From Nitrosospira sp. (GTDB taxonomy: Bacteria > Pseudomonadota > Gammaproteobacteria > Burkholderiales > Nitrosomonadaceae): a DNA stretch of 63,798 bases. Each line of letters opens with the position of its first letter. The first letter of the stretch is position 1. The translations under genes were made by a program, and so were the position numbers. The DNA is taken from assembly GCA_026399575.1 (NCBI GenBank), contig JAPLQS010000026.1, positions 1 to 63,798 of the forward strand, in the 5' to 3' direction. Below are positions 7,524 through 55,733 of the stretch, in pieces. A model generated the notes under the pieces. It searched no databases and was not told the DNA's origin. It was given only the letters and a program-made list of their open reading frames with translations.

Positions 7524-7570
7524 GATCGAGCATGGGGTAACGCGGATAATACTAAGGAACTTTTGCAGCC

Positions 7571-29267: not shown

Positions 29268-30422
29268 ATGAATGAAAATCAAAGCCAGTTAACGTCCGCA
29301 GCGGTTAGCGTGCGCCCGGTCACAAATTATCGTGAGATGGGAGTATTTATCGACCTCCCCTGGCGCATCTACGCAGATGACCCCATGTGGGTGCCGCCAT
29401 TACGTCTGGAACGGCGGCTGCACTTTTCCCGGTTTAACTCATTCTTCAAGCATGGAGAATGGCAAGCCTGGATCGCGTACCGGAATAATCAGCCGGTAGG
29501 AAGGATCAGCGCGCAGGTCGATCAACTTCACCGGCAACACCATGGTGCGGATACCGGCCACTTTGGCTCAATGGAATGTGTGGACGACACGGAAGTATGC
29601 GCTGCGCTGGTGGGTGTTGCCGAGGCATGGCTGGCTGCCCGCCATACCAGACATGTCAGCGGACCGTTCAACTTGTCCATCAATCAGGAATGCGGCATTC
29701 TGGTGGATGGCTTCGACACCCCGCCGATGGTAATGATGCCGCACTCACCAAAATGGTATGGCCGTTTACTCGAAGAACAGGGTTATCAACCGGTTAAGGA
29801 TCTGCTTGCCTACTGGGTAGACGTAGATTTTGAGGTGCCTCGAGTAATGCGTTCCCTGATCGGGAAATTTTCCAAACATATAAAGCTCAGGACGCTACGC
29901 ATGGATAACTTCAGTGCGGAGATGGAAATACTGCGTGATATATTCAACGATGCCTGGTCAGAGAACTGGGGCTTCATTCCTTTTACCGAGGCCGAGTTTG
30001 CCGAGCTGGGCAGTAGTCTGCGTCTGCTTGTGCCGGAGTATTTCATCCAGATTGCCGAAGTCGATGGTGTTCCGGCAGCATTCATGGTGGGATTGCCCAA
30101 TCTCAACGAGATCTTTGCCAAACTTGATGGAAGCTTGTTTCCATTTGGCTGGCTTCGGCTGATCCGGTGGTTTAGAGACCGTGCGGTTCGTACCGGCCGG
30201 ATACCCCTGATGGGGGTGCGCAAGCAATTTCAGAATACTCCCCTCGGTATGGCGCTGGCTTTCATGGTGATCGATGAGCCCCGGCAGTCGGCGCTTTCCG
30301 CAGGGATCAAGGAAGTTGAAATGTCGTGGATACTTGAGGATAACAAAGCAATGCGTTCAATTCTTGATCTCATTGGCAGCAGGCAGTATAAGCGTTACCG
30401 GATCTACGGCAAAACCCTGTAA
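29268..30422 (+). CDS. GNAT-like N-acyltransferase, candidate lipid (ceramide synthase-like) acyltransferase
   Basis: 384 residues from ATG 29268 (MNENQSQLTSAAVSVRPV). It belongs to a GNAT-fold group of about 380 residues often misnamed dATP pyrophosphohydrolase. Features include FIDLPWRIYADDPMWVPPLR, WIAYRNNQPVGRISAQ (acceptor beta strands), GPFNLSINQECGILVDGFDTPP, the central WSENWGFIPFTEAEFAEL and a C-terminal EMSWILEDNKAMRSIL acyl-CoA/ACP-binding region. Members of this group have been linked to bacterial ceramide synthesis. Here it opens a locus with a nucleotidyltransferase, LptF/LptG and a lipid kinase. The fold is well supported; the substrate is inference from context. Confidence 0.75.
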   Translation: MNENQSQLTSAAVSVRPVTNYREMGVFIDLPWRIYADDPMWVPPLRLERRLHFSRFNSFFKHGEWQAWIAYRNNQPVGRISAQVDQLHRQHHGADTGHFGSMECVDDTEVCAALVGVAEAWLAARHTRHVSGPFNLSINQECGILVDGFDTPPMVMMPHSPKWYGRLLEEQGYQPVKDLLAYWVDVDFEVPRVMRSLIGKFSKHIKLRTLRMDNFSAEMEILRDIFNDAWSENWGFIPFTEAEFAELGSSLRLLVPEYFIQIAEVDGVPAAFMVGLPNLNEIFAKLDGSLFPFGWLRLIRWFRDRAVRTGRIPLMGVRKQFQNTPLGMALAFMVIDEPRQSALSAGIKEVEMSWILEDNKAMRSILDLIGSRQYKRYRIYGKTL

Positions 30423-30467
30423 GCAGCATAGTGGGCAGACAAGACGACATCAGCAGCGGAATTTCAG

Positions 30468-31298
30468 ATGAATCAGACAGACCGATTTAGCGCTGTGGTA
30501 CTGGCAGCGGATCGCACAGCGCACGACCCGGTCGCCAGCAGGGCGGGTACGGCTTGCAAGGCGCTTGCACCGATCGCCGGAACGCCCATGATCATTCGGG
30601 TGCTGGATGCGCTGGAGGCGAGTGAGATGGTGGGGAAGATTGTGGTGTGCGGGCCACCCGCATCCATGCTCCCTGACTGTCCGGAGTTGCAGCGGCGGAT
30701 AGAATCGGGGCGTGTCACCTGGCTGCCGAACCTGAATTCGCCCAGCCGCAGTGCCAATAGCGGTCTGGCGCAGATGGATCATGACGCACCGGTATTGTTG
30801 ACGACAGCGGATCATGCGTTATTGACGCCTGCGATCATCCGCTATTTTCTAAGCGAGTCCCGCACGCTGGATAGTGATGCCACGGTGGGAGTAGTCAAAC
30901 ATGCAGATGTCGCAGCCGCATTTCCGGGCACCAAGCGTACGGCAATACGGTTGCGTGATGGAGGGGTTTGCGGCTGCAACCTCTATGCGTTTTTCAATCA
31001 TCGCGGACGTGATCTGGTTACATTCTGGCAACGGGCAGAAGATTTGCGCAAACGCCCCTGGCGCTTGATCGCACAGGTGCTTGGCCCAGGTGCCGTTCTC
31101 TCCTATCTGCTGGGATCGCTGACACTCGACCGGGCACTGAATACGGTCTCGGCCAGAGTCGGGGTCAAGGTACGGACCGTGTCTCTGCCTTACCCGCAGG
31201 CGGGTGTCGATGTCGACAAGGTCGAGGATATGCTGCTGGTGGAATCCATCCTGGCGAGAGCAGCGGCGTCTTCCCAGGATGACAGCGGGCCTACATAA
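30468..31298 (+). CDS. MobA-like NTP transferase domain protein
   Basis: 276 residues. Residues 8-40 (AVVLAADRTAHDPVASRAGTACKALAPIAG) match the nucleotide-binding loop of the MobA/GT-A nucleotidyltransferases, with the lysine before ALAPI and a TTADHALLTP metal-binding aspartate near residue 110. Such proteins couple CTP or another NTP to a phosphorylated small molecule. Position 45 bases after the acyltransferase and ahead of LptF suggests it activates a lipid headgroup. Molybdopterin biosynthesis is unlikely given the neighbours. Confidence 0.75.
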   Translation: MNQTDRFSAVVLAADRTAHDPVASRAGTACKALAPIAGTPMIIRVLDALEASEMVGKIVVCGPPASMLPDCPELQRRIESGRVTWLPNLNSPSRSANSGLAQMDHDAPVLLTTADHALLTPAIIRYFLSESRTLDSDATVGVVKHADVAAAFPGTKRTAIRLRDGGVCGCNLYAFFNHRGRDLVTFWQRAEDLRKRPWRLIAQVLGPGAVLSYLLGSLTLDRALNTVSARVGVKVRTVSLPYPQAGVDVDKVEDMLLVESILARAAASSQDDSGPT

Positions 31299-31351
31299 CG
31301 GTATCCGGTCGTATGAACACCGTTTTACTACGAGGGTAGCAAGGAAAATTC

Positions 31352-32428
31352 GTGAAAATAATAGAGCGCTATATCACACGTGAGTTGTTGATACCGTTTA
31401 CGGTGATTATCGTGATCCTGGCGGGACTCTACGCAAGTTTCATCAGTGGCCGTTTTCTGGCGGGGGCGGTGACCGAGTCGTTGGGTGTGATGGCCATGCT
31501 GAAACTGGTGTTGCTGAAGACTGTAATTTCCCTGGATGTGCTGATGCAGCTCGCTCTTTATGTTGCCATCGTCGTCGTTCTTGGCCGGTTGCACCGGGAC
31601 CAGGAGATCAATGTATTGCGCTCCGCCGGTGTCAGCGACCGTCGCATAATCTACGCCGTCCTGATGGTTGCCATCCCCATCGGAATCATCATCGGTCTGC
31701 TATCCATTTTTGTGCGTCCCTGGGCTTATCAAGAGAGCTTTGTTATGAATGCGCAGGCAGAGGCAGAGTTAAATACGGATCGATTTCAGGCCGGGCGTTT
31801 CTATGGGAGCGAAGGTAGCGGCAGAGTAATTTATATCCAGAGCAAGGATAACTCTGACAAGCAGATGAAAAATGTATTCCATTACGTCAACAAGGGCGAC
31901 AGCAGCGAAATCATCGTGGCCAAGGAAGCGGGCCAGCAGCAATTCCAGTTCGGGCAACGATCCCAGATTCATTTATCCGATGGTTTTGTCTACCGTTTCA
32001 TGCACGCCGCCACGAAAGACACTGTTGCCCAGTTCGACAAGCTGGTGTATTTCACTGATAAAGGCAGTGAAAGAGGCTATGCACGCAAGTCGGCCACCAG
32101 TCTGTTTCTGGCAGGGTCGGATCAGCCACGCGACATTGCCGAACTGCAATGGCGGCTTTCACGCCCTATCGGGACGATTCTGCTGGCGCTGATTGCCATC
32201 TCATTCACTCGCGCTTCGCCGCGCCAAGACAAGGGCGAAAGGCACTTGTTTGCTGCCGCCATGGTTTTCGCGATTTATTATATTCTGAGCGGATTGGCTC
32301 AAACCTGGGTGGAGCAGGGCACCGTAGGCAGCCTGCCCGGTGTCTGGTGGCTGTACGCATTGATGTTCATCACCGCGCTTGGTTTGCTGTCATCCAGCCC
32401 TCAACAGAGAATGCTTCTGCGTCGATGA
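31352..32428 (+). CDS. lptF: LptF-family lipid export permease
   Basis: 358 residues from GTG 31352 (AAGGAA 8 bases upstream). Typical YjgP/YjgQ architecture: three N-terminal membrane helices (MKIIERYITRELLIPFTVIIVILAGLY onward), a periplasmic beta-jellyroll of about 130 residues, then three C-terminal helices. LptF and LptG form the inner-membrane channel that, with the ATPase LptB, extracts lipopolysaccharide toward the Lpt bridge. Here the pair sits in a lipid-synthesis locus rather than beside pepA, its frequent betaproteobacterial location, so a dedicated role for another lipid is possible. Confidence 0.92.
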   Translation: MKIIERYITRELLIPFTVIIVILAGLYASFISGRFLAGAVTESLGVMAMLKLVLLKTVISLDVLMQLALYVAIVVVLGRLHRDQEINVLRSAGVSDRRIIYAVLMVAIPIGIIIGLLSIFVRPWAYQESFVMNAQAEAELNTDRFQAGRFYGSEGSGRVIYIQSKDNSDKQMKNVFHYVNKGDSSEIIVAKEAGQQQFQFGQRSQIHLSDGFVYRFMHAATKDTVAQFDKLVYFTDKGSERGYARKSATSLFLAGSDQPRDIAELQWRLSRPIGTILLALIAISFTRASPRQDKGERHLFAAAMVFAIYYILSGLAQTWVEQGTVGSLPGVWWLYALMFITALGLLSSSPQQRMLLRR

Positions 32429-33489
32429 CAATAATCAACCGTTACCTCGCGTTGCAGGTTTTCATCGGTCTGGTCGTTGCCACGGCGGTAATTTTGCCGG
32501 CATTCGCTTTTCTCGATTTGTTGGATCAGCTCGGTGACGTCGGCAAAGGAACATACCGCGTGCAGGATGCATTCCTTGACACCGCTTTGTTGTTGCCGCG
32601 CAGATTCATTCAGCTTGCACCATTTATCGCATTACTGGGAACTGTGTTTGCTTTGGGACGATTGGCGGTTAATCAGGAACTGACCGCGTTGCGGGTAGCG
32701 GGGCTTTCTCCTGTTCATATCAGCCGGGCCCCACTCGGGGTCGGACTGGCCCTGTTGTTATTCATTGCGGTACTGGAGCAATTTATTGCCCCACATTTTC
32801 AACAGAAAGCCATATCGCATCAGGCCGCTGCTCTCGGGAAGACTGCGGAACTGGGCAAGAATCTGGGTATCTGGACCCGGGATGAACGAAATATATTACG
32901 CATCGGTGAAATGCAGGGCGCCAAGAGAGCAGAGAATATCGAGCTGATGCACTTTGATGATAATGGTTTCCTGCGGACCTATACCCATGCCCAATATGCC
33001 AACATTCTTGATGACAATCTCTGGGAGCTGAATGATGTCGTCACCAAGACCTTTACCGGGGAACAAATCGAGTCGGTGAATGCGAGCTCGATGAACTGGA
33101 AATCATTCGTGAATCCGGGCGATATCTCGACCCTGACCAAGTCGCCGGAGAGCCTTTCACCTACTGAGCTGTTTCAGCATGTACGTTTTCTGCAGGCTAC
33201 GGGTCAGGAAGCGGATGCCTATGCGCTGGCTTTGTGGCGCAAGATTGGGGGAGCGTTGACAACCATCGCGATGCTGCTGTTTTCCATACCCTTTGTTCTC
33301 GGTTCGGTGCGCACAGGTCTCGGTAAACAGGTAGTGCTCGCTTCCTTGATTGGTGTGGGTGTTTATCTGCTTGATCAGATTATTGCCAATGCCGGTTTGC
33401 TGCTGCATTTCAATCCGCTGCTGACCGCGCTGCTCCCGGGATTGGCGCTGATTGCCCTGGCCAACCTCTGGCTGCGGCGAGTCTTTTAG
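32425..33489 (+). CDS. lptG: LptG-family lipid export permease
   Basis: 354 residues from ATG 32425, whose ATGA overlaps the lptF stop, so the two are translationally coupled. It has the same 3+3 membrane helix arrangement (TIINRYLALQVFIGLVVATAVILPAF; C-terminal IGGALTTIAMLLFSIPFVLG), with a periplasmic jellyroll at about 110-270. The longer open frame back to 32149 overlaps lptF and is not used. Partner of LptF in the ABC-type lipid extractor. Confidence 0.92.
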   Translation: MTIINRYLALQVFIGLVVATAVILPAFAFLDLLDQLGDVGKGTYRVQDAFLDTALLLPRRFIQLAPFIALLGTVFALGRLAVNQELTALRVAGLSPVHISRAPLGVGLALLLFIAVLEQFIAPHFQQKAISHQAAALGKTAELGKNLGIWTRDERNILRIGEMQGAKRAENIELMHFDDNGFLRTYTHAQYANILDDNLWELNDVVTKTFTGEQIESVNASSMNWKSFVNPGDISTLTKSPESLSPTELFQHVRFLQATGQEADAYALALWRKIGGALTTIAMLLFSIPFVLGSVRTGLGKQVVLASLIGVGVYLLDQIIANAGLLLHFNPLLTALLPGLALIALANLWLRRVF

Positions 33490-33492
33490 GGT

Positions 33493-33550
33493 GCCTCTGA
33501 ATAAATCCCGCGCGGCTATGATGGCGATCCAATCATGATTGGAGCATCGC
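33493..33550. repeat. Insertion-sequence-end-like segment with internal palindrome
   Basis: Right after the lptG stop lies TGCCTCTGAATAAATCCCGCG, cut short of any gene. Its core matches the arms of the inverted repeat at 2668-2715 (TGAAyAAATCCCGCG). It is followed by a 14-bp perfect palindrome at 33529-33542 (CCAATCATGATTGG) nested in a GCGAT..ATCGC stem (33524-33528 and 33546-33550). No transposase frame is present, so this is at most a solo end or remnant. Confidence 0.5.
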
Positions 33551-33704
33551 GCCTGCGCCGTTATTTCTGTGATACAGGGTGGTAATTGGCTGGTGTGCTT
33601 GGCGCAGTCATGGTACTTTACAGCGGCATTTGGAGAGAGCACTCCCGGTTGGGATCAAGAGAAACCACCCGTCCGGATTTTTAGCCGTGTACTGGTTGAG
33701 ATAG

Positions 33705-34721
33705 ATGGTAGAACAGTTGCAGATTGATAGACTGAGGATGGGAACGGCCAGGGTCGGGTTGCTTCTGAATCCTCTCAGCGGGCGTATCCGCAAGCATATC
33801 GACGTGATAAGACGTATGCTGGCCGAAATTCCCGCTGCAGTCTGCCGGGAGGTGACGAGCGCGTCGGAGATCGGCGCAGCGGCAGATGCTTTTCTGCAAG
33901 CTGATGTTGATTTGCTGGTAATCATTGGTGGGGATGGCACGGTGCAGGCGGTGTTGACTCACCTGTTCACCACCCGGCCCGAAAAATGGCCGGTTCTGAC
34001 CATCGTTCCCGGCGGCACCACCAACATGACCGCGCTGGATCTGGGAATACACGACAAACCCGAGATTATCCTGCGGCGGTTAAGCAATTGCCTGTCGCAA
34101 CAGATCTCGCCCATATTGTTGCAACGCCCGGTATTGTGTATTGAGCAGCCCGGTGCCAGCAAGATTTATGGCATGTTCTTCGGCGTCGGCCTCATCGCCC
34201 ATGCCGTAATATTCTCTCGCAGCAAGGTCAAACGGCTGGGTATCACCGGAGAAACCTATTCGGGCATCATCATGTTGGGCTATCTTGCCGGCGTGATTCT
34301 TGGACGCAAGCATGGACCATGGGCGCCGATTCAGATGACAATCACCGAGGCGAGTGGAGAAGTCCGCAATGGAACTTATCTGGTTCTTCTCGCCAGCGCG
34401 CTTGATCGCCTGCTATTTAACATGCGGCCCTACTGGGGACAGGAGCAGGAGCCGCTGCATGTCACGTTTGTTGAACAGCAGCGGAATCATCCGTGGCGTG
34501 CGTTATGGCTGCTGCTTTCCGGTCACAGCGATGCCATCAAGGAACAAGATGGTTACCACAGTCACAACACCAGTGTATTGGAACTGCTGATGGATGACGA
34601 TTACATCATTGATGGTGAATTCCATCGGGCGACAAGCCAGGATGGGCCGCTGCGTATTTCGGCAGCCGGACCGGTTACCTTTCTGGTACCCGGCGATAAA
34701 AATACAGACCCGCGACAATGA
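33705..34721 (+). CDS. Diacylglycerol kinase-family lipid kinase
   Basis: 338 residues. The catalytic domain shows GLLLNPLSGRIRKH (nucleotide-binding loop), VIIGGDGTVQAVL (the GGDGT motif of DAG/sphingosine/ceramide kinases) and TIVPGGTTNMTALDLG, with a C-terminal beta-sandwich. This family phosphorylates a lipid hydroxyl with ATP, giving phosphatidate or ceramide phosphate. It is translationally coupled to the next gene (ATGA, 34718-34721). Start may instead be ATG 33738 (MGTARVGLLL). Substrate is inferred from the neighbourhood. Confidence 0.88.
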   Translation: MVEQLQIDRLRMGTARVGLLLNPLSGRIRKHIDVIRRMLAEIPAAVCREVTSASEIGAAADAFLQADVDLLVIIGGDGTVQAVLTHLFTTRPEKWPVLTIVPGGTTNMTALDLGIHDKPEIILRRLSNCLSQQISPILLQRPVLCIEQPGASKIYGMFFGVGLIAHAVIFSRSKVKRLGITGETYSGIIMLGYLAGVILGRKHGPWAPIQMTITEASGEVRNGTYLVLLASALDRLLFNMRPYWGQEQEPLHVTFVEQQRNHPWRALWLLLSGHSDAIKEQDGYHSHNTSVLELLMDDDYIIDGEFHRATSQDGPLRISAAGPVTFLVPGDKNTDPRQ

Positions 34722-35689
34722 CGAACCATCTCTCGACATCTGCCCAGCGGCTCCCGGACGGCTTGATTGCCGAGATGGCATCCCTGAGTTCCAGGACGGT
34801 GCCGGCAGATTTTTCAGTCCTGGTCGAAGAGCTGAAGTCACGTTTCGGCGCATCGCTGGATGCCGTGATTCTCTATGGATCGTGCCTGCGTTCGCAGGAT
34901 GCTGCTGACGGAGTTGTCGATTTTTACGTGGTGGTGGACAGCTACAGCAACGCTTACCCGGAACGCTATTTACGGCATCTTAATGCGTGGCTGGCGCCGA
35001 ACGTTTTTTATCTGGAGGTATCCGGGCAGGAAAAGAAGTTCCGCGCCAAATATGCGGTGGTTTCAATGGCTGATTTTGAACAGGGCACCCGCTACTGGTT
35101 TCATCCCTATCTGTGGGCACGTTTTGCTCAACCCACGCGGCTGCTGCATGTGCGCGATGACATTGCCCGTCAGCGTATTCACCACGCGCTGGCCCAGTCG
35201 GTGGTGACATTTCTCGAGTCCAGCATCCCGGCGCTGGGCACATGCATGGTGAACGCAGAAGAAATCTGGACCAGGGGTTTGGCCCTGACCTATGCGGCAG
35301 AACTCCGGGCCGAGCGGGAAACGCGGGCGCGCCAGCTTACCCAGCTTAATCTGGATGACTATACCCGGTTGACGGCGCAGGCCGCACCGGCGCTGACGGG
35401 AAAACTGGAGGTTTTGCCGGACGGCAATTACCGCTGTCTGGCTGATGCGGCGGAGCAACAGCGTTCACTGCGGCACTGGCGGCTGCGCCGCTGGCAGGGG
35501 CGTATTCTGTCGGTGCTGCGGCTGACGAAAGCGGCATTTACCTTCCGCGATTGCGTAAGTTACGCCGCTTGGAAAATAGAGCGCCACACCGGGGTGCGTG
35601 TCGAGGTCACCCCCATGTTGCGACGCCATCCCGTGCTGTGGGGTTATAAGATTTTCTGGCAACTGTTGCGGCGCGGCGTGCTGCGTTGA
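34718..35689 (+). CDS. Tam41-like nucleotidyltransferase, candidate lipid-phosphate cytidylyltransferase
   Basis: 323 residues. The N-terminal third has the polymerase-beta-type nucleotidyltransferase signature ILYGSCLRSQDAADGVVDFYVVVD (GS..D-x-Y/D). It is followed by ANxFYLEV-like NVFYLEV, a lysine in RAKYAVVSMADFEQG, and WFHPYLWARFAQPTRLL. This order resembles Mmp37/TAM41, the mitochondrial CDP-diacylglycerol synthase. Overlap with the lipid kinase upstream suggests they act in sequence: phosphorylation, then CTP-dependent activation. The family call is from motif layout only and needs a profile search; a different polymerase-beta nucleotidyltransferase is the alternative. Confidence 0.65.
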   Translation: MTNHLSTSAQRLPDGLIAEMASLSSRTVPADFSVLVEELKSRFGASLDAVILYGSCLRSQDAADGVVDFYVVVDSYSNAYPERYLRHLNAWLAPNVFYLEVSGQEKKFRAKYAVVSMADFEQGTRYWFHPYLWARFAQPTRLLHVRDDIARQRIHHALAQSVVTFLESSIPALGTCMVNAEEIWTRGLALTYAAELRAERETRARQLTQLNLDDYTRLTAQAAPALTGKLEVLPDGNYRCLADAAEQQRSLRHWRLRRWQGRILSVLRLTKAAFTFRDCVSYAAWKIERHTGVRVEVTPMLRRHPVLWGYKIFWQLLRRGVLR

Positions 35690-40095: not shown

Positions 40096-42570
40096 ATGAA
40101 GGCCCTTTTCTTTCTGCGTCATTACAACGATGTAGATCACATTACCCCGGTCATCTCCAAATGGGTCGATTCCGGCCATAGCTGCGATGTCGTCCTGATC
40201 GGTTTCGAGTATTTCCGCAACGATTTCCGCATCGAATTTCTGAAGAAACTGCCGGGCGTGCGCGTGGCGCATATTCAGGAGTTGCTGCCACTGTCCGAGT
40301 TCATCAGGTGGCGGGGGCAGATGTTGCTGTTGATCCGCGGTTTGCGGCTGCCGCTGTTGGGTCCGATCGTCAATGCAGTAGCCCAGTTTTATGATGCCAA
40401 ACGGCGCGAGCCGATCTGGCGCCGCACCACCCAGCGCTTGCTGACACGTACATTCGAGGGGGCTGACGGGGGCGTGGTGGCGTTTGACTGGGTTGAAAGA
40501 AATTCGACCATCAGCGTGGAGTGGGTCGAAATCGTGGTATCGATGGCGCATGCTGCAGGCCTCGGCATCGTGTCGCTGCCGCATGGCGACAGCCCGCATG
40601 CCAGTCAACTGATACGGCGCAACGAGCTGAAGCTCGGACCCGATGCACTGTTTTCCGCCGGACGCATGTTTGACAAGCTGGTGGTGCCAAATGAATTATG
40701 CGCCGGACGCTTCCGTCCGTTCATGGACAACCAGAAAATCGCCGTACTGGGTTCGCCGCGCTATTGCGATGAATGGCTGACCAAGCTCGCTACGTTGTTG
40801 CCGCCTTCGCCGCTGCCTCGCTCCGACAGTCGGCTCAAAGTGCTGATGTTTCTGAGAAAGAGCAATTTCACGACATTCTGGGAGGAAGTCGGTTATGTGG
40901 TGCAGTTGATCGCCTCTTTCCCTGGCGTGGAACTGATGATCAAACCACATACACGCGGTGGCTGGCAGCAGACCTTGACCAGGGATTCCTCATTGCGGCG
41001 CTTGCCGAACGTGAGCGTGGCGGGCGGCGGCATTCATTCCGCTCATTTATTGGACTGGGCGGATGTCATTGTCGATCTTGCCACCTCGGTTTCGTTTGAG
41101 GCGGTCAAGGAGGGCAAGCCGGTACTGGCGGCCGATTACCTGATTGCGGGGCGTTCCACGGTGGCGCATTACATGCCCGAGACAGAACTGCGCTGCCGGG
41201 ATGACGTGTACGAAAAGATTGACGGGCTTCTGCGCAACGGTTGCGGCTCCTTCTATGTCGAGGAACACCGGCAACGTTTCATCGACGAAATGCTCCATGT
41301 CGGCGGGCCGGACGTATTGCCGCGTTTTGTGGCTTTGCTGGAGTCGCAGGTACGGGCAAAACCCGTAGCGGATCGGATCCAGCAGGACGATCATGTTCCA
41401 GTCGAAAAATCAGCGCAAGACGCGCAGCAGGCAACGGCGCTTGCGGAAATTCAGGACTCCAGGCCAGTTCATTTGCCAACTGAGTTGCCAATCGAGTCAC
41501 TAGCTGAGTCATCTGCCAAGTTACCAGCCGAAATAAACGAATCGGCAATACCGTCCGTCGATGTGGTGATCCCGGTCTACAACGCGCCTGAGTTAACGCG
41601 GCGCTGCATTGACTCCGTTGTTGCCCGCCTCGGCCATTCCATCAGATATATTTATGTCCAGGACGATGCTTCCGACGCCGAGACGCGCGAGATGCTCGAT
41701 CAGTTGCCGTATGAATGCGTGCGTATCCATCACGCACCGAAGAACCAGGGTTTCGGTCTGTCGGTGAACGAGGCAGTCGGCCGCTCCGACGCGTCCTACG
41801 TGCTGGTGCTCAATTCCGATACCGAAGCGAGCGATGACTTTCTGCCGCCGTTGTGTGCCGCGATGGCAGCCGATCCGAAGCTGGCGGTCATCATCCCCTC
41901 CGGCAACTACTACGCCACTTATGACCTCAACCAGTATCCGCGGCAGCCGGGCGGCTATATCCTGACCCACCGCTTGCGCGGCCACGCGTTTCTGATCCGG
42001 CGCGATGTGTTCCAGGAAATCGGCGGCTTCGATCCGGTGTTCGGCCGCGGCTATTACGAAGATATCGACCTGGGCCGTCGGCTCGACCTGCTTGGCTGGC
42101 GCATCGGCGTGCATCCCACCGCGAGCATCTATCACAAGGGTGGCGGCTCGTTTGGCCGCAGCCTGTCTTATCTGGAACTGGTGCGGCACAACCGCAACCT
42201 TTATTTCTCACGCTATCCCAATGCGCGACGCAATATCCTGCTTTTCTCAGGCCACCGCCCGCTGGAAAATCTCCCGCCGGATCTTCTTGACGCGATCGAG
42301 ATCGTGTTTCGCGAAGGGGGGTGTGTCCATTGGCTTACGCGCAAACCGGTTCCCCAGCTTTTCTGTCTGCATATGCCCAACCGATCCATGAGCCTGGGCG
42401 TGGTGATCAGGCTTTCGCTGCACGGCTGGCTGCGGCCCGACAAGCGCGTCTCAGAAATATGGCTGCTGCCCGATGTTTCGGGTCCGCTGCGCGCTTCGCT
42501 CATGTTCTGGGGTCGAACGAACGGCATCAAGGTGCTCGCGTGGGACGACAAGGCTGCGGCAGCAGCGTAG
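40096..42570 (+). CDS. Two-domain glycosyltransferase (GT-B-like plus GT2)
   Basis: 824 residues. The first half (about 1-420) is a Kdo-transferase/CDP-glycerophosphotransferase-like GT-B region, with LPHGDSPHASQ, ELMIKPHTRGGW and a late DVIVDLATSVSFEAVKEGKPVLA. A low-complexity linker rich in P, E, L and S (about 440-490) joins it to a GT2 domain starting PSVDVVIPVYNAPELTRRCI, with VLNSDTEASDDF (DxD) and FGRGYYEDIDLGRRL (ED motif). The fusion implies one protein adding two sugars. It is the first gene of a three-gene + strand glycan block. Confidence 0.85.
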   Translation: MKALFFLRHYNDVDHITPVISKWVDSGHSCDVVLIGFEYFRNDFRIEFLKKLPGVRVAHIQELLPLSEFIRWRGQMLLLIRGLRLPLLGPIVNAVAQFYDAKRREPIWRRTTQRLLTRTFEGADGGVVAFDWVERNSTISVEWVEIVVSMAHAAGLGIVSLPHGDSPHASQLIRRNELKLGPDALFSAGRMFDKLVVPNELCAGRFRPFMDNQKIAVLGSPRYCDEWLTKLATLLPPSPLPRSDSRLKVLMFLRKSNFTTFWEEVGYVVQLIASFPGVELMIKPHTRGGWQQTLTRDSSLRRLPNVSVAGGGIHSAHLLDWADVIVDLATSVSFEAVKEGKPVLAADYLIAGRSTVAHYMPETELRCRDDVYEKIDGLLRNGCGSFYVEEHRQRFIDEMLHVGGPDVLPRFVALLESQVRAKPVADRIQQDDHVPVEKSAQDAQQATALAEIQDSRPVHLPTELPIESLAESSAKLPAEINESAIPSVDVVIPVYNAPELTRRCIDSVVARLGHSIRYIYVQDDASDAETREMLDQLPYECVRIHHAPKNQGFGLSVNEAVGRSDASYVLVLNSDTEASDDFLPPLCAAMAADPKLAVIIPSGNYYATYDLNQYPRQPGGYILTHRLRGHAFLIRRDVFQEIGGFDPVFGRGYYEDIDLGRRLDLLGWRIGVHPTASIYHKGGGSFGRSLSYLELVRHNRNLYFSRYPNARRNILLFSGHRPLENLPPDLLDAIEIVFREGGCVHWLTRKPVPQLFCLHMPNRSMSLGVVIRLSLHGWLRPDKRVSEIWLLPDVSGPLRASLMFWGRTNGIKVLAWDDKAAAAA

Positions 42571-42598
42571 GCTAGCGGAGTGACTGGAGCATGGCATC

Positions 42599-43549
42599 TT
42601 GTCTGTGAAGTGGGCGATCAAGACGGTAATCAGGGATCTGCAATACCTGTGTAATTTATCGCTCTATGCGCTCACACAACAGAAGGTAAGCGCAAAACCC
42701 CAAGTCAGATATTCCAAAGAAGGAGCGCTAGCGCCGAATCACGCCAAGCCAATATGCCTCTTCTGCAGCTATGATAACGAGAGCATAGTCAGGCAGAACG
42801 TGTACTATTATCTCAAGCAACTTGCGCTGGCAGGATTCGATGTTGTATTCATCAGCTCGAGCGATACGATTTCGGATGCGGATCTGCAGAAACTGGCGGG
42901 GTACTGCACCAGGATAATCAGCCGGGAGAACAAGGGTTACGATTTCTATGGCTGGAAAACAGGGCTGGAGCAATATCCCCAATACCATGCACACCCTGGA
43001 CTCTTGCTGGCCAATGACAGTGTGCTCGGGCCGCTGTTCAACTTCAGCGACATCATCGCGAGGCTGGAGAATTGCGATGCCGATATCGTCGGCATGACGG
43101 ACAACTTCCGCTTTTATCCTCATCTGCAATCCTATTTTCTCTATTGCAAGAAACCCGTGATCTTGTCTGAAGAATTCATTGGCTTCTTTGATCAGATCAA
43201 AGTAGTAGGATTCAAGATCGCAATAGTCCGGAAATATGAAGCCGGTTTTTCCCGCTTGCTCGGTCAGCGCTTTCGCCTGGCGGCACTCTATAGTCTGGAG
43301 CGTGTGCTTGACCAGATTCAGTATCTGGAGCGGCCGAAGGAGTGGATCGATCCGACTTTCCGTCTGTGGGAGCCACTTATCACCGAATTCAAGTTTCCGT
43401 TTCTGAAGAAAAGTATCCTGACAAGACGAGAGGTGAGCATGCAAGAAGTTGCGGCAGTACTTGCCGGAAGCAGTTCCACCTTTGATGTTGGCATGTTGGC
43501 CGACTGGGTTGCAGAGATCGCTCCGGAGTCCCGGGTTGGATCGAGATGA
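42599..43549 (+). CDS. Rhamnan synthesis F-like (RgpF) glycan protein
   Basis: 316 residues from TTG 42599 or GTG 42605. Shows KPICLFCSYDNESIVRQNVYYYLKQL, SRENKGYDFYGWKTGL, LLLANDSVLGPLF and ADIVGMTDNF, features of rhamnan synthesis protein F, a group of glycan-modifying or transferring proteins. The usual FPFLK-type tail is present, but from residue 274 it carries a module (LTRREVSMQEVAAVL..TFDVGMLADWVAE) that recurs in the next protein. Consistent with polymer containing rhamnose, whose dTDP precursor genes lie at 58.7-62.8 kb. Confidence 0.8.
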   Translation: MSVKWAIKTVIRDLQYLCNLSLYALTQQKVSAKPQVRYSKEGALAPNHAKPICLFCSYDNESIVRQNVYYYLKQLALAGFDVVFISSSDTISDADLQKLAGYCTRIISRENKGYDFYGWKTGLEQYPQYHAHPGLLLANDSVLGPLFNFSDIIARLENCDADIVGMTDNFRFYPHLQSYFLYCKKPVILSEEFIGFFDQIKVVGFKIAIVRKYEAGFSRLLGQRFRLAALYSLERVLDQIQYLERPKEWIDPTFRLWEPLITEFKFPFLKKSILTRREVSMQEVAAVLAGSSSTFDVGMLADWVAEIAPESRVGSR

Positions 43550-43603
43550 GAGGCTGCTGATGATCTGTGAACCCAGCACTGCAATCACACGGCGGCACCT
43601 CAA

Positions 43604-45781
43604 ATGAGTGCACGGCTATCCTTGTCTATTGCATTGGCCACATATAACGGCGAGCGTTTTGTCGGCGAGCAACTGGACAGCATCGCACGCCAGACTCGCC
43701 TGCCAGACGAGCTGGTGATCTTTGATGATGCTTCGACCGATGCCACAGTATCTGTGGTACAGGATTTCGCCCGGCGTGCGCCCTTTCCGGTGCGACTGCA
43801 GGTAAATCCTGAACGCCTCGGCTCGACTCGTAATTTCGGGGCAGCGATCTATGCCTGCGGCGGCGAGATCATCTTCCTATGTGATCAGGATGACATCTGG
43901 TACCCGGATAAGATTGCTCGTATCGAAGAGCAGTTCGTACGCAATCCGGAGACTGGTGCCGTTTTCACCGATGCTGATGTGGTCGATCGAGATCTCAATC
44001 CCCTCAGGTTGCGGTTGTGGGAGGAAATCAGGTTCAGTTCGCGGGAGCAGGCACAGATTGTAGCTAGCGATGCAACCACGGTATTGCTCAAGCACCCTGT
44101 GGTAACCGGCGCGACCATGGCTTTTCGTTCCGCCTATCGTGACCTTGTGCTGCCGATACCGGATGTATGGGTACACGATGCCTGGATATCGCTATTGATT
44201 GGCGCTGTCTCGCAACTGACCGCGTTGCCGGCACCACTGATAGCCTATCGTCAACACAGCGCCAATCAGATTGGTGCACTGCGGCGCAAGAAGAACCACA
44301 ACAAAAGCCTTGCCGAAATCCATGGAAAGAAGCTCCTCTTCTATGGATTGGCGCGAACACGTCTGCTGGAACTCGCCGATCGCTTTCCGGACACTGGGCA
44401 ACAGATTTGCCGTCTTGACGAGAAACTCACCTTCCTGCGCGCGCGAGTTGCCCTACCCACTGCTCGCTGGCGTCGCTTGCCCCACGCCCTGCGCGAACTC
44501 GCCGCGCAGCATTATCATTACTATGCCATGGGGCTGGAGAGTTTCGGCAGCGACCTGCTGCATGCGGAAGAGGCATCCCCGAATACAAACACCCTGACGA
44601 AGCGGGAGGTCGGCATACAGGAGACTCCGGCAGTGCTTGTCGAGATCGATCCCACTTTTGATGCTGGCAAGTTGGCTGAGCGGATTGCAGAACCAGTCGT
44701 AGAAAATCCGGATGCGCATAAAGACACCAGAGACCGTGCCTTGATAAATCCGAAACTATCTATTTGTATTGGAACCTACAATAGAGCGAAATTCATCGGC
44801 GAGACCCTGGACTCCATGCTGGTGCAGTTGGAACCCGGCGTTGAAATTGTCATCGTGGATAATGCCTCATCCGATAACACCACCGAGGTGATGGCGCAGT
44901 ATTCGTCACGCCACCCCGAAATTCGTTATTTCCGTAAGCCGGAAAATACAGGCTTTGACCGCAACTATGACGAGGCTGTCAGGTATGCAAGGGGCGAGTA
45001 TTGCTGGCTGATGTCTGACGATGACTTGCTATGCCCTGGTGCTATTGCCAGAGTGCTGTCTGTTCTTGGTGGCGAAGACGACCTGATTGTTGTCAACTCG
45101 GAAGTCAGGAATGCGGACTTATCTGTTGTACTCGAGAATCAGCTGATGAAGCTTGATATTGATAAGGTGTATCGCGAGGCTGATCACGAGAATTTCTTTG
45201 CCAGAACCGCCAAGCACCTTTCATTTGTCGGTTGTTTGGTTATTCGACGCACTTACTGGCTCTCCAAAAGCGCCCCTGCTTATTATGGAACGGGTTTCAT
45301 TCACGTTGGTGTAATCTTTCAGAGTCCACCTGTTGTGAATGTCAGGGTAATGGCTGAGCCTTCAGTCATTATTCGTCTTGGTAATGCAACGTGGAGTTCT
45401 GTCCGTTTTGAAATCTGGATGCTGTGGTGGCCGAAGCTGATCTGGTCATTCCCGGATTTCTCGGATACGGCCAAACGAAAGGTTTGCCCACGCGAACCGT
45501 GGCGGCGTTGGGACATACTGTTAAAACACAGGGCGCTGGGGGTCTATACAAAAGCCGAGTTCAACAAAGTCTGGCCGACTGGTAGTGGCGGGGTTGCACG
45601 TACGGCTGCCTATCTTCTGAGCATCTTCCCTGAATCATCGGCCAACTTCCTGGCGATGCTCTATCTCTCTTTGTTAGGCAAGAATAAAGCAAGAGTATTG
45701 CATGACTTGTTGCACAGTCCCCATGCAGGCGTATTGAGCCGTTCCTTGGCGCGGATTATGGGTAACAAAATCAGCTCGTGA
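43604..45781 (+). CDS. Double GT2-family glycosyltransferase
   Basis: 725 residues with two GT-A domains. Domain 1 (about 5-250): LSIALATYNGERFVGEQLDSI, LVIFDDASTDATV, FLCDQDDIWYPDK. Domain 2 (about 385-640): LSICIGTYNRAKFIGETLDSM, IVDNASSDNTTEV, GEYCWLMSDDDLL. Between them, from residue 331, lies a 34-residue segment also found at the C-terminus of the preceding RgpF-like protein (18 identities by eye). This suggests gene fusion or segment duplication. Both catalytic DxD-type motifs appear intact, so it may add two residues to the glycan. Confidence 0.85.
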   Translation: MSARLSLSIALATYNGERFVGEQLDSIARQTRLPDELVIFDDASTDATVSVVQDFARRAPFPVRLQVNPERLGSTRNFGAAIYACGGEIIFLCDQDDIWYPDKIARIEEQFVRNPETGAVFTDADVVDRDLNPLRLRLWEEIRFSSREQAQIVASDATTVLLKHPVVTGATMAFRSAYRDLVLPIPDVWVHDAWISLLIGAVSQLTALPAPLIAYRQHSANQIGALRRKKNHNKSLAEIHGKKLLFYGLARTRLLELADRFPDTGQQICRLDEKLTFLRARVALPTARWRRLPHALRELAAQHYHYYAMGLESFGSDLLHAEEASPNTNTLTKREVGIQETPAVLVEIDPTFDAGKLAERIAEPVVENPDAHKDTRDRALINPKLSICIGTYNRAKFIGETLDSMLVQLEPGVEIVIVDNASSDNTTEVMAQYSSRHPEIRYFRKPENTGFDRNYDEAVRYARGEYCWLMSDDDLLCPGAIARVLSVLGGEDDLIVVNSEVRNADLSVVLENQLMKLDIDKVYREADHENFFARTAKHLSFVGCLVIRRTYWLSKSAPAYYGTGFIHVGVIFQSPPVVNVRVMAEPSVIIRLGNATWSSVRFEIWMLWWPKLIWSFPDFSDTAKRKVCPREPWRRWDILLKHRALGVYTKAEFNKVWPTGSGGVARTAAYLLSIFPESSANFLAMLYLSLLGKNKARVLHDLLHSPHAGVLSRSLARIMGNKISS

Positions 45782-45849
45782 TTTTTCTGGTCATCGAGGT
45801 TTCTCATGCCACAACGCTAGGCTTCTGCAATTCCTGATTGGCACCAGTC
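45663..45849. repeat. Imperfect direct repeat, copy 1 (glycosyltransferase 3' end)
   Basis: Segments 45663-45684 (CTCTCTTTGTTAGGCAAGAA) and 45773-45849 correspond, in the same order and orientation, to 46892-46912 and 46918-46992. About 88 bases between the two blocks are absent from the second copy. The repeats bracket the AT-rich methyltransferase gene. Confidence 0.7.
45804..45849 (-). pseudogene. Fragment of a second DHQ-synthase-like 3' end
   Basis: On the - strand these bases read TGANQELQKPSVVA-stop, which matches TSTNQELQKLIGVA-stop at the end of the DHQ-synthase-like gene at 46949. Nothing further upstream in this copy is homologous. It is the remnant left by duplication of the junction between two convergent genes. 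Confidence 0.6.
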
Positions 45850-45893
45850 CAGCAGCAGACGGTGTGCAAGTATGGCCCTTACTGATGAATGAG

Positions 45894-46863
45894 TTATATT
45901 TTCATGAATAATCCAGAAATTATGTTTAATTCCATCCATTCGATATCAATTTTATTTTTTTCAACAACTAGCTCTTTGAGATCCAGGGAATTAGCAAGAG
46001 CCTTAATTGATTGTGTGCTGTAAAGATTCAGATGCTCATGAATTTTATGGCTTACGTTGGGGTTCGCTTTTACGAAACGCTGAATATCCTCCTCGGTTCT
46101 GTCTTGTGGCACTTCAAGGTAAAGATAGCCGCCTATCTTTAGATAAGATAGGACATTTCTTAAAAAATCGCGTGGGGAAGGAAGATGTTCAAGAACGTGA
46201 CAAATCTGGATAAAATCGAATTTTTCATCAGCAGCGGGCTGTTTTATCCGAATAAAGGTGTTATCGGCAAGTAACTCATTGGATACATCGAGAATAAAAA
46301 CTTTTTTATTGCGAAGTTCTTTGGGAATGAATTTGCCTTCCCCCCCCCCAATCTAAGACTGTTTCAATCGATTGCAATTCAACATATTTACTTATCAAAT
46401 TGCTCATGTTATTCAGCCTGTTATTAATTTCAATTCCGCTTTTGCCAACTAGGCTTTGTATGTTTTTATATTGTGGCTCAAAGAATTCTCTTTCTGAGTC
46501 ATATGAATCTGACCTGTAATCCTCATATAGACCGAATAGTTGAGAATCGTCATAATTATAATTAGGGCAAACAAATCCACAATCTGTGCATACACTGATA
46601 TTTGTTTTGGCTGCTGAGCGGAATTTATTTAACTGCTTTCCAATTGTGGTATTACTTAATACTTGGAAAACAGAATTGAGTGTTTTTTTAATGAGCGTAT
46701 CGGGAAGTTTGTCTAATTTTTGATTTATCTGTTCACCCAATGACATTAACTGGATACTGTGGACTCTCTTCAGGAAAAAGGGAGCTATGGTACCTTGGTT
46801 TAAAATTAAGGTATTGTGAGAGCCACAGTTACGGCACTCCAACGCATTCTGGGTAACTTCCAT
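45894..46863 (-). pseudogene. Class I SAM methyltransferase with zinc-ribbon start, frameshifted at a G10 tract
   Basis: Two frames read as one methyltransferase of about 320 residues. The first (from ATG 46863 or GTG 46866) has CRNCGSH and CTDCGFVCP pairs of a zinc-ribbon and runs to VLDWGGG, the SAM motif I. The frame then breaks within ten Gs (46340-46349). In the second frame it continues EGKFIPKELRNK, FDFIQICHVLEHLPSPRDFLRNV, LKIGGYLYLEVP to the stop at 45894. A tract of 12 (or 9) Gs would restore the frame; 12 gives DWGGGGEG-like glycine spacing. The gene is clearly more AT-rich than its neighbours, suggesting recent acquisition. It may be a phase-variable glycan methyltransferase or a homopolymer sequencing error. 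Confidence 0.85.
46340..46349. repeat. Homopolymer tract of ten C (G on coding strand)
   Basis: Ten consecutive Cs within the methyltransferase reading frame at its SAM-binding motif. Length change by slippage would switch the downstream frame on or off. Confidence 0.95.
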
Positions 46864-46891
46864 CACAAGGTGAGCTCCTATCGTAAGTTTC

Positions 46892-46992
46892 TTCTCTCTT
46901 TGTTGGGCAAGAAAGTCGGCTCGTAATCTTCCCAGTCAATGAACCTACTCACGCCACACCAATAAGTTTCTGCAATTCCTGATTGGTGCTAG
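46892..46992. repeat. Imperfect direct repeat, copy 2 (DHQ-synthase-like 3' end)
   Basis: 46892-46912 matches 45663-45684 with about one mismatch, and 46918-46992 matches 45773-45849 at roughly three-quarters identity by eye, rising to near identity over TCTGCAATTCCTGATTGG. Confidence 0.7.
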
Positions 46993-48028
46993 TCAATTCG
47001 TCATAGGACAGATCATCAGTTCTGATCAGTTTGAAACCATCAATCAACATGATAAGCACCAAGCCATCACCAGTTCGTTTTTTATCCATTTTCATTGCCG
47101 CAAACAGCGCATCAGTATCGAGTTGATGCCTGTTTGGTTTTGCTGTTAGTGCCGGCTGCAACGCATACTGGTATAGTTGTTCGAAAAGCGCAGAACTCAT
47201 CAAGCCACGATTCTTGGCGACAATATTAGCGAACAGCATGCCAATAACTACCGCCTGCCCATGGGGAATGTTAAAGCCTGAAGTGGATTCGACCGCGTGG
47301 CCAAAACAGTGTCCGGAATTGAGCAAGTTGCGCTTTCCGGTGTCGAACTCATCATCCTGCATGTAGCTGAGTTTGACCATTAGCGATTTTTCGATAGCGG
47401 ACAGCAATGCGGCAGAATCTTTACGACCAACCAGTGCCGGGAGACTTGACATTAGTTCATGAGCCAACTGCTCGCCACCCATCAGGTGCAGCTTGATGAT
47501 TTCTCCCAACCCGCTGAAATAATCTTCATTCTTTAATGTCTTGGTGAATCTGGGACAGAGGAAAATCTGATTCGGTGGAAAGAATGTTCCCACGAGATTC
47601 TTGTAGTTCTTATAGTTGAGGGAGGTTTTGCTGCCAATACAGCTATCAGCTTGCGCCAGCAAAGTTGTTGGTACAAAAATCCAGTTAATACCGCGGTACA
47701 GAGTTGAAGCGGCAAAGCCGGTAATATCCTGCACGATCCCGCCACCGATTGAAATCATTGTCATGTTGCGCTTGGCTGAGCGAGACATCAGCACCTCATA
47801 AATCTCCATGACCGTATAGAGATTCTTGCGATCTTCCTCAATCGGCAACACCATCACCAATTGGGGATCGAGACGAGAAAACAGGGAGTCGCGGTAGAGG
47901 CCCCACACGTTGCTGTCAATTATGTAGAACCGATTTGGAATCTCTTCGAATGCTTCAAGAAAATCAAATGTATCAGAGAACTGCACTTCGTAATCGCGAA
48001 TCGCGGAATGCACTTTGATTATCTGCAT
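46949..48028 (-). CDS. 3-Dehydroquinate synthase-like sugar cyclase/dehydrogenase family protein
   Basis: 359 residues. The fold and metal sites of DHQ synthase are visible: SIGGGIVQDITGFAASTLYRGI (NAD-binding GGG..D..GF), FVPTTLLAQADSCIGSKT, GLGEIIKLHL (metal Glu), NSGHCFGHAVES and IPHGQAVVIGM (metal histidines), and MKMDKKR. The housekeeping aroB is usually paired with aroK, so this copy in a glycan locus is probably a specialised sugar-phosphate enzyme. ATG 48028 overlaps the SDR stop by ten bases. The substrate is unknown. Confidence 0.82.
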   Translation of the reverse strand: MQIIKVHSAIRDYEVQFSDTFDFLEAFEEIPNRFYIIDSNVWGLYRDSLFSRLDPQLVMVLPIEEDRKNLYTVMEIYEVLMSRSAKRNMTMISIGGGIVQDITGFAASTLYRGINWIFVPTTLLAQADSCIGSKTSLNYKNYKNLVGTFFPPNQIFLCPRFTKTLKNEDYFSGLGEIIKLHLMGGEQLAHELMSSLPALVGRKDSAALLSAIEKSLMVKLSYMQDDEFDTGKRNLLNSGHCFGHAVESTSGFNIPHGQAVVIGMLFANIVAKNRGLMSSALFEQLYQYALQPALTAKPNRHQLDTDALFAAMKMDKKRTGDGLVLIMLIDGFKLIRTDDLSYDELTSTNQELQKLIGVA

Positions 48029-48687
48029 ACATAGCCCCCATCAACCACCAATACCTGCCCGGTCATATAGGAATTCTTTTCAGAACACAGAAAGACCGCC
48101 ATCTCGGCTATCTCCGCCGGTTCAGCCAAGCGATGTAACGGTATGCTATTGCTGATTAACTGGATCTGCTCCGGGGAATTGTTCTGACTTGTCAGTTCGG
48201 TATTAACATAACCTGGAGCTATCGCATTAACTAATATGCCGTGTTCCCCCAACTCTATTGCCAGCGTGCGTGTAACTCCGTTCATAGCCGACTTGCTTGC
48301 CGCATAAGCCAGTCGTCGCTCCTTGGCGACTACACTCCAGATCGAGCTGATGTTAACAACTCTACCATAGCGATTCGCCTTCATTTTTTTCGCTACCAGT
48401 TGGGTCAGTATGAGAGGGGCTACTAAATTAACTTGTAGGGTTTGTCCCAATACTTCTTGATCAAGCTCCTCCAGCCCCGCCAAAAAATTGATACCAGCAT
48501 TATTTACCAGAATATCAATTGAATCCTCCACGGAGGAGATATAGCGTTCGATTGAGGAGTTGTCCGACAAATCCAATTCAGAACGAGAAGGCGTCAGAAC
48601 TCTGGCCCCTGCTTTCTTAAAAAGTTCAGCAGTCGCCGCGCCGATTCCCCTGGATGCACCGGTTATTAGTGCGACACGTCCTTTCAT
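48019..48687 (-). CDS. Short-chain dehydrogenase/reductase (FabG-like)
   Basis: 222 residues of the classical SDR type: ALITGASRGIGAATAELF, LVNNAGINF, VNISSIWS (catalytic Ser), YAASKSAMNG (Y-x-x-x-K), APGYVNTEL and the C-terminal GQVLVVDGGY. It reduces a ketone with NAD(P)H. Overlaps both neighbours (ATGA with the aldolase, ten bases with the DHQ-synthase-like gene), so it is part of one transcription unit dealing with a sugar or keto-acid intermediate. Confidence 0.9.
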   Translation of the reverse strand: MKGRVALITGASRGIGAATAELFKKAGARVLTPSRSELDLSDNSSIERYISSVEDSIDILVNNAGINFLAGLEELDQEVLGQTLQVNLVAPLILTQLVAKKMKANRYGRVVNISSIWSVVAKERRLAYAASKSAMNGVTRTLAIELGEHGILVNAIAPGYVNTELTSQNNSPEQIQLISNSIPLHRLAEPAEIAEMAVFLCSEKNSYMTGQVLVVDGGYVCR

Positions 48688-49496
48688 CTAATAATTCCAT
48701 ATTCTGCCATGGCATTTTTGTAACGTGCTTCCAGCATTTCAATTCTGTGCGCGTCCTCCTCGAAGATCAGCCCATAGAAATCTCGTTTGTTCTTCAGCCA
48801 TAGCAATTCGAAATATACCGCTTTGAGAATGCCCGCTTCGGAACCTTCATTGAGTGCCTGCGGGCATTCAAAAATCACCTTGCGCGTCTCGTAGTAGTTA
48901 ATTGAGTCCTTAGGCAATCTTCTTAGGAATGGCAATGTGTCTGCAGATACTCCCCCACCTACGGCGGTCACCAGACCCTTGGCATGGGTTTTGGTTACGA
49001 CATCCTTTGTGATCTCGAACACTCTATCGCCATTTATATCGTCGCGACTTAGTCCTGCAGAACCGCTCATATCCACGCGTCCTATCACGATGCCATCCAA
49101 TTCTTCAATCTCAGGCAGGGCCAGCATCGCATCAAGATTTTTGCACGTGGTAACCGTCTCGACATTAATTACAAACTTGACCTGATCTCTCTCATCATCT
49201 GGAAACGCAAGCTTAATTGCAGCAAGGAACTTTTTAAGCGCATAAGGCGTTTCCACCATGGGAGCCACTATCCTGCTAACTCCAAGTACGCGCGCTTCAT
49301 ACATATCGCGAATCGCCTCGCATCCTCCGATTTTGAGCGTAAGGCCAAGCCCGGCAGCGCTGATCACCTCTTTTAAGCGCATTGCCTCTTCAAGGCGCGT
49401 ACCCTCCGCTTCAAATTCCGCTTTCACACCGATGACATGGTGATTTTTCTTCAAGTCACTCAGAACCTCGACCATTTGTCGTTCAATTTTGTTCAT
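48684..49496 (-). CDS. HpcH/HpaI aldolase/citrate lyase-family protein
   Basis: 270 residues from ATG 49496 (GGGAGA 6 bases upstream; a TTG one codon earlier is less likely). It has VIGVKAEFEAEGTRLEEA, LTLKIGGCEAIRDMYEA, VSRIVAPMVETPYALKKF, FVINVETVTT and LDGIVIGRVDMSGSAGLSRD, the glutamate and aspartate metal ligands of the TIM-barrel family. It is distinct from the aldolase at 38209. Followed by an SDR and a DHQ-synthase-like enzyme in one overlapping set, so it may supply a keto-acid or cut one from a sugar. Confidence 0.82.
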   Translation of the reverse strand: MNKIERQMVEVLSDLKKNHHVIGVKAEFEAEGTRLEEAMRLKEVISAAGLGLTLKIGGCEAIRDMYEARVLGVSRIVAPMVETPYALKKFLAAIKLAFPDDERDQVKFVINVETVTTCKNLDAMLALPEIEELDGIVIGRVDMSGSAGLSRDDINGDRVFEITKDVVTKTHAKGLVTAVGGGVSADTLPFLRRLPKDSINYYETRKVIFECPQALNEGSEAGILKAVYFELLWLKNKRDFYGLIFEEDAHRIEMLEARYKNAMAEYGIIR

Positions 49497-49695
49497 CAAA
49501 ATCTCCCAATTTCAGTGTAATAATCTGATCACGTCCAGTCTGTATTATTTTCATTGCGGTTAATCCCTCTTGTTCCTTCAAGCTTTATTTTTCGCTCATC
49601 AGATTTTGCACTTGCTTCTGTTGTCAGGCAATCCCATAAGCTCCTTGTGAAGGCTCGTAATTCCTGCATTAGCTTGCCGAAGCAGTCGGCTGCCG

Positions 49696-52553: not shown

Positions 52554-52559
52554 GGCGTA

Positions 52560-53876: not shown

Positions 53877-53889
53877 TTCAAACCCCTGC

Positions 53890-54981: not shown

Positions 54982-55733
54982 GGCGCCTTGCCGCTTACCC
55001 ATAATTCTTCCAGATGGTTTTTGTCACGTAATGTGTCCATAGGCTGCCAGAAACCATGATGGAGATAGGCGGAGAGTTGGCCTGTCTGCGCCAAGCGTTC
55101 CATCGGTTCCTTTTCCCAGAGAGTGTGGTCACCCTCTATATAGTCGAACACCTTGGGGGAGAGTACAAAAAAGCCACCGTTGATCCAACTGCCATCGCCC
55201 CGGGGCTTCTCTTGGATATGCAGAATGTCGCTGCCAGATAGTTCCAATGCGCCAAAACGTCCCGGTGGTTGCGTTGCTGTCAACGTGGCAAGCTTGCCAT
55301 GTTGTTTGTGGAATGCGATTAAGCGCGTGATGTCAACATCACCGATGCCGTCGCCATAGGTGCAGCAAAAATCCTCATTCCCAACATAACTGGCGACACG
55401 CTTGATGCGACCACCGGTCATGGTTTCCTCGCCAGTGTCCACCAGCGTCACCCGCCAGGGTTCGGCGTTGCGCTGATGAACTTCCATTTTATTGGATTCC
55501 ATATCAAAAGTGACATCCGACATGTGCAGAAAGTAATTGGCAAAGTACTCTTTGATCACATAGCCTTTGTAGCCACAGCAGATAATGAAATCATGGATGC
55601 CATGGGCCGAATAGGTCTTCATGACGTGCCATAAAATTGGCTTGCCACCAATTTCAACCATGGGCTTGGGCCGAGTAGACGTTTCCTCGCTGATGCGAGT
55701 ACCGAGACCGCCTGCGAGAATGATTGCTTTCAT
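54966..55733 (-). CDS. rfbF: Glucose-1-phosphate cytidylyltransferase (RfbF/DdhA)
   Basis: 255 residues. Starts [18 protein letters not shown] with the activating [19 protein letters not shown] and the later [12 protein letters not shown] and [13 protein letters not shown] metal/sugar segments. It joins CTP and glucose-1-phosphate to CDP-glucose, the first step of the 3,6-dideoxyhexose pathway. GGGAG precedes ATG 55733. First gene of the long - strand transcription unit running to about 49.7 kb. Confidence 0.96.

Follow-up and report, generated by a model that had tools for sequence, protein, structure and literature searches.

The window analyzed here, a stretch of 63,798 nucleotides from a Nitrosospira sp. 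(GenBank assembly GCA_026399575.1, contig JAPLQS010000026.1), carries a cluster of six genes in which the lipopolysaccharide (LPS) permease genes lptF and lptG stand among predicted genes for ceramide and headgroup synthesis. Judging from gene content, we consider it probable that this cluster makes an anionic phosphosphingolipid as a substitute for LPS and exports it through the only LptFG pair of the cell, a pair of the LPS type. The interest of the arrangement lies in a combination of features, namely the failure to find the lipid A genes for LpxC and LpxB, the retention of LptD and the position of LptFG beside the putative ceramide synthase gene cerS. The genome to which the window belongs, as contig C39, is a 2.09 Mb draft (93 contigs, 95% complete), and the host is a Nitrosospira/Nitrosovibrio-like ammonia-oxidizing betaproteobacterium.

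Lipid A genes and LptD were surveyed in 25 genomes of the window's own family (family f1, Nitrosomonadaceae, to which all family counts refer), the window's genome included, and in 16 genomes from other families of the order. LpxC was found in 0 of the 25 family genomes vs all 16 of the others, and the same split was obtained for LpxB, for which a single weak match below the cut-off (in G016) was the most that the family returned. LptD, on the other hand, is present in all 41 genomes, although only as pieces in G020 and G042, and in the window's genome it lies at C60:8171-9328 with a score of 337 bits. In three family genomes that consist of one contig (G010, G015 and G019), a single LptFG pair lies next to cerS, and no match to LpxC or LpxB exceeds the cut-off. 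What, then, would LptFG transport in such a cell? Because the cell apparently no longer makes lipid A, we propose that LptFG carries the phosphosphingolipid, and since LpxC and LpxB were found neither in the window's genome nor in its 24 relatives, even a sole pair could serve sphingolipid export.

The initial annotation had pictured a private LptFG pair, additional to one that serves LPS. A search of the draft genome recovered one pair only, and matches to the LptF_LptG family number exactly two in 34 of 37 family genomes, three in G033, and none in G007 and G029. Wherever a pair was found (35 family genomes), cerS is on the same contig, and the more distant of the two lpt genes starts 2.9 to 3.7 kilobases (kb) from it. 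Both proteins pass the equivalog models for LPS export (LptF 298 bits, cut-off 230; LptG 310 bits, cut-off 240). Moreover, a branch with 100/100 support in the LptF tree separates 11 LptF2 proteins, drawn from cerS loci of other families, from a set made up of the family, E. coli, the locus L073 and 19 further families of the order, and an LptG tree built by a quick method agrees with this split. As the only pair found in the genome, LPS-type by model and separated by tree from the divergent LptF2G2 of alpha/gamma clusters, the LptFG of the window is not a second pair of the Caulobacter type, and the private extra pair was rejected for these reasons. The family proteins are not nested among those of the 19 other families and sit on a very long stem, for which the program warned of long branches meeting.

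Two further observations concern LptF relatives. Locus L073 (genome G173, from another order of the class) has cerS, the nucleotidyltransferase gene, lptF and lptG in the order seen in the family, with aasR-cerR-acpR-spt beside them, and its LptFG groups with those of the ammonia oxidizers on a long branch. In G033, which is outside the sample used for LpxC and LpxB, the lone extra LptF is of the family type and adjoins a close homologue of the ATP-binding cassette (ABC) exporter described below, far from the cerS cluster (L113:4192-7220).

The genes for the ceramide backbone lie elsewhere in the same genome. As had been predicted, serine palmitoyltransferase (SPT, the spt product), its acyl carrier protein and the ceramide reductase are encoded outside the window, in an aasR-cerR-acpR-spt set on contig C49 (L070:8926-13182, minus strand). 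Within this set SPT scores 599 bits against an NCBIfam cut-off of 500, and the fatty acyl-AMP ligase model is passed at 853 bits (cut-off 600). CerS and SPT were surveyed in 37 family genomes and in 24 from other families of the order. SPT of at least 74% identity is present in 35 of the 37, the exceptions being G007 (89% complete) and G026 (79% complete), vs a best identity of 36% among the 24. CerS likewise occurs in 35 of the 37 (not in G007 or G029) vs none of the 24; in a wider draw from the phylum, 43 of 398 genomes have it. The prediction of sphingolipid synthesis is supported by these genes, and it is already partly in print (the Nitrosomonas eutropha orthologues, Olea-Ozuna 2024): a passage of PMC9386255 lists the ceramide genes of N. 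eutropha, and one in PMC11324152 gives good orthologues in that species for at least 13 of 17 Caulobacter genes. A sole lptFG pair in a genome lacking backbone genes had been named as the outcome that would speak against a sphingolipid locus; the pair is indeed the only one, whereas the backbone genes are present. Immediately downstream of spt is an ABC exporter gene (L070:7048-8778, minus strand, contig C49) whose product is MsbA-like at 242 bits, far below the cut-off of 602, and is a candidate sphingolipid flippase.

All six open reading frames (ORFs) described for the cluster are present in the ORF list of the window (Table 1), with successive spacers of 45, 53, -4, 215 and -4 bases. Gene order was compared in 62 named relatives, retrieved through the last, Tam41-like gene. 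The complete order is kept on one strand in 46 of these (in L024 the nucleotidyltransferase is an 84-residue match only), and the arrangement is not due to chance. Ten incomplete loci start at, or no more than 4.3 kb from, the first gene found, so that their missing genes may lie beyond the sequence examined; the six others are considered below.

Table 1 Features of the predicted sphingolipid cluster in the window
Feature	Position	Strand	Remarks
cerS-type GNAT acyltransferase	29268..30422	+	ATG start; mechanical ORF opens at TTG 29061
MobA/CofC-like nucleotidyltransferase, likely CC_1153 counterpart	30468..31298	+	position next to cerS
LptF, LPS type	31352..32428	+	GTG start; without arginine at E. 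coli position 212
LptG, LPS type	32425..33489	+	4-base overlap with lptF
Relic of cpgA 3' end (CDP-alcohol transferase)	33555..33647	+	in lptG-kinase spacer; 31 residues, 48% identity, one stop
DAGK-type lipid kinase, likely ceramide kinase (CpgB type)	33705..34721	+	DAGK_cat match
Tam41-like nucleotidyltransferase, likely CC_1161/CpgC counterpart	34718..35689	+	PF09139 matches, predicted fold

The enzymes flanking lptFG were assigned with differing firmness. The acyltransferase on its own has no Pfam or NCBIfam match, and a search of the PDB with its profile gave none either. GNAT (PF00583) is matched by 7 of 12 aligned members (best 2e-6), the window's member not being among the matches shown, and the predicted structure, of modest confidence (mean predicted local distance difference test score, pLDDT, 71.7), finds its best matches in GNAT acetyltransferases, tandem GNATs included. 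Among 20 cerS loci of other families, 9 have an Spt of more than 400 bits close to the homologue, and the protein is predicted to be CerS, an N-acyltransferase. The nucleotidyltransferase (NTP_transf_3, 1.5e-16) and the lipid kinase (DAGK_cat, 2.3e-17) are assigned to the level of family; the kinase is likely a ceramide kinase of the CpgB type (CC_1160), with homologues in other cerS loci. The last gene has no family match at the default threshold. With E values of up to 1 allowed, Tam41 (PF09139) is matched by each of the 24 aligned members (best 4.5e-6), although the score of the window's own copy, 18 bits, falls below the curated cut-off of 24. The five best PDB matches to its predicted structure (pLDDT 82.4) are all Tam41, with TM-scores of 0.45-0.50 by query length. 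This fold fits the published description of CC_1161, and the last gene is likely the CC_1161/CpgC counterpart. Profiles of the cluster proteins also match genes within the cerS loci of other families.

We hypothesize the following route, in which enzyme order and headgroup are borrowed by analogy from what is published on Caulobacter. Ceramide would be built by AasR, AcpR, Spt and CerR from the other contig together with CerS from the cluster, and the kinase would then convert it to ceramide-1-phosphate. A passage of PMC11324152 describes CC_1161 as CDP-DAG-synthase-like and proposes a CDP-lipid step for it; the Tam41 fold makes such a step plausible for the last gene, whose product may activate ceramide-1-phosphate with CTP to give CDP-ceramide. 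The MobA/CofC-like enzyme may help to make or activate the headgroup. Finally, the sole LptFG would pull the phosphosphingolipid from the inner membrane and hand it on towards LptD.

The headgroup itself may differ from that of Caulobacter. In 47 of the 54 named loci that have both lptG and the kinase gene, a CpgA-type CDP-alcohol transferase gene separates the two (in L016 at 6762-7967). It is gone from the other seven, where spacers of 162-238 bases remain, as in the window. The window's spacer retains a relic that aligns to the end of CpgA at 34.7 bits, vs at most 23.9 bits in 200 shuffles; relics are also present in L003 and L004, with a weak one in L005 (26.9 bits), and none was seen in L006, L007, L008 or L009. 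Within the window's genus all 9 genomes, its own included, lack a full CpgA match, which 14 of the 16 other family genomes have. According to a passage of PMC12275187, cpgA (CC_1159) is needed in Caulobacter for the second phosphoglycerate of the lipid CPG2. By analogy, the window's genus, having lost cpgA, probably makes ceramide phosphoglycerate (CPG), with its one phosphoglycerate, as the end product, or else a lipid with another headgroup.

Does LptF bear a trace of a changed cargo? A passage of PMC4986956 reports that LptC is bypassed when arginine 212 of E. coli LptF is replaced by C, S or G. In our alignment column 212, which has a small gap nearby, holds arginine in E. coli and in 17 of 19 LPS-type relatives; 2 of the 11 LptF2 proteins have it, and none of the 53 family rows does. 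R223 is also lost in the family. The loss of R212 is suggestive only, hinting at transport that may proceed without LptC. In a broader proposal, the betaproteobacterial ammonia-oxidizer family as a whole has switched cargo: its members have given up lipid A and build the outer leaflet from phosphosphingolipid, and the much diverged sole LptFG in the ceramide operon moves that lipid, possibly without LptC. We put this forward tentatively, as a proposal slightly more apt to fail than to hold in all its parts.

Downstream of the cluster the window continues with genes of another kind. Between 35703 and 39835 on the minus strand, genes for a HAD hydrolase, an epimerase, a 2-hydroxyacid dehydrogenase, an HpcH/HpaI aldolase and a CTP_transf_3 cytidylyltransferase stand in a row adjoining the lipid cluster and resemble a route to a CMP-activated keto-sugar acid; we take the aldolase to belong to a family other than that of KdsA. 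A surface-polysaccharide set follows (40096-56741), comprising glycosyltransferases, RgpF, a DegT aminotransferase, an NTP_transferase and an FkbM methyltransferase, as well as a dehydroquinate-synthase-like gene, a thiamine pyrophosphate (TPP) enzyme and a second HpcH aldolase.

Several points weigh against the proposal that LptFG carries a phosphosphingolipid in place of LPS. Both the identity of the lipid and its transport are deduced from gene content, and the cargo in particular from the gene neighborhood and the failure to find LpxC and LpxB, the lipid A search having covered these two and not LpxA, LpxD, LpxK or WaaA. Several residues that presumably contact LPS are kept in the family, namely LptF R33 (14 of 15 rows) and R292 (15 of 15) and LptG R136 (13 of 15) and R301 (15 of 15); R212 is the one residue of this comparison that was taken up from a paper. 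At LptG K34 all 15 family rows have aspartate, but 18 of 19 LPS-type relatives share this residue, so that the position is uninformative. The family LptFG may have been inherited vertically and evolved fast, or it may have been acquired. The nucleotidyltransferase is missing from 4 of the 62 loci (L019, L021, L023 and L033), where a cerS-lptF gap of 305-461 bases leaves no room for it, and in L017 and L038 the kinase and Tam41 genes are apart from lptFG, with 8 to 9 kb upstream free of lptFG; these six loci weigh against a fixed operon. An older paper (a passage of PMC3087551, 2010) noted lpxK as the only such gene of N. europaea and lpxA as the only one identified in N. multiformis, and the missing lipid A genes were explained there as genome reduction. 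Separately, the four loci without the nucleotidyltransferase are from Nitrosomonas and, with the 84-residue remnant match in L024, have the appearance of a lineage-specific loss of a headgroup gene.

The alternative that survives best is that LptFG exports another glycolipid or a lipid-linked polysaccharide, with the sphingolipid traveling by another route. The CMP-sugar and glycosyltransferase genes that follow the cluster make a glycolipid cargo possible, and the MsbA-like exporter adjoining spt could offer the other route; the linkage that was followed across the family and found to be kept, however, is that with ceramide and headgroup genes, and we regard this alternative as unlikely. Less likely still is that LptFG continues to export LPS, with lipid A supplied by enzymes so divergent that the searches missed them, and that its proximity to the sphingolipid genes means nothing more: the LPS models passed by LptF and LptG, the retained LptD and the single lpx genes of N. 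europaea and N. multiformis would all fit, yet two committed genes are missing from every family genome surveyed and found in every other one, and LptFG is locked beside cerS throughout the family. By analogy with the proposal for Caulobacter LptF2G2, LptFG could also be a private second pair for sphingolipid beside another for LPS, but this is very improbable. Of 20 cerS loci in other families, 12 do have LptF and LptG nearby, and in 11 of these the proteins are divergent; here, however, the pair is the only one found, is of the LPS type and is unaccompanied by any LpxC or LpxB that the searches could find.

A replacement of LPS by an anionic phosphosphingolipid therefore remains our preferred explanation, and in a literature search that was thin on subscription journals none of the matches listed joins a sole LptFG, a ceramide cluster and the loss of lipid A genes. 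A passage of PMC11324152 states that the sphingolipid route to the bacterial outer membrane is unknown. In Caulobacter the matter is harder to isolate, since an LPS system operates alongside the proposed sphingolipid exporter. In Nitrosomonadaceae, a family that includes cultured species (Nitrosomonas europaea among them), the searches found one LptFG, one LptD, no LpxC or LpxB, and ceramide genes around LptFG. If these bacteria do lack lipid A and their outer membrane carries a sphingolipid, a change of cargo has taken place in an LPS-type Lpt machine, the transport question becomes directly testable, and it would be explained how these nitrifiers manage without lipid A.

The closest known system is the C. 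crescentus region CC_1152-CC_1168 for CPG and CPG2, which, as far as PMC11324152 describes it, shares the ceramide genes, LptF and LptG and probably the lipid kinase, CDP-DAG-synthase-like and nucleotidyltransferase genes, and beside which N. eutropha, a betaproteobacterial ammonia oxidizer, has already been listed. The cluster described here differs from it in its sole LPS-type LptFG, in the lack of detectable LpxC and LpxB, and in the loss of cpgA from the window's genus. Canonical LPS export by LptB2FGC-A-DE is resembled in the LPS-type permeases and the presence of LptD; unlike that system, no committed lipid A genes were found, the permeases lie in a ceramide operon and LptF arginine 212 is replaced. 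Sphingomonas paucimobilis is named in a passage of PMC10094684 as an exception to LPS. The likeness to LPS-lacking Sphingomonas is that of a Gram-negative envelope without LPS in a maker of sphingolipids, predicted here from genes alone. The envelope lipid of Sphingomonas is presumably a glycosphingolipid, whereas the kinase and nucleotidyltransferase genes of the present cluster point to a phospho headgroup, and do so in a betaproteobacterial family.

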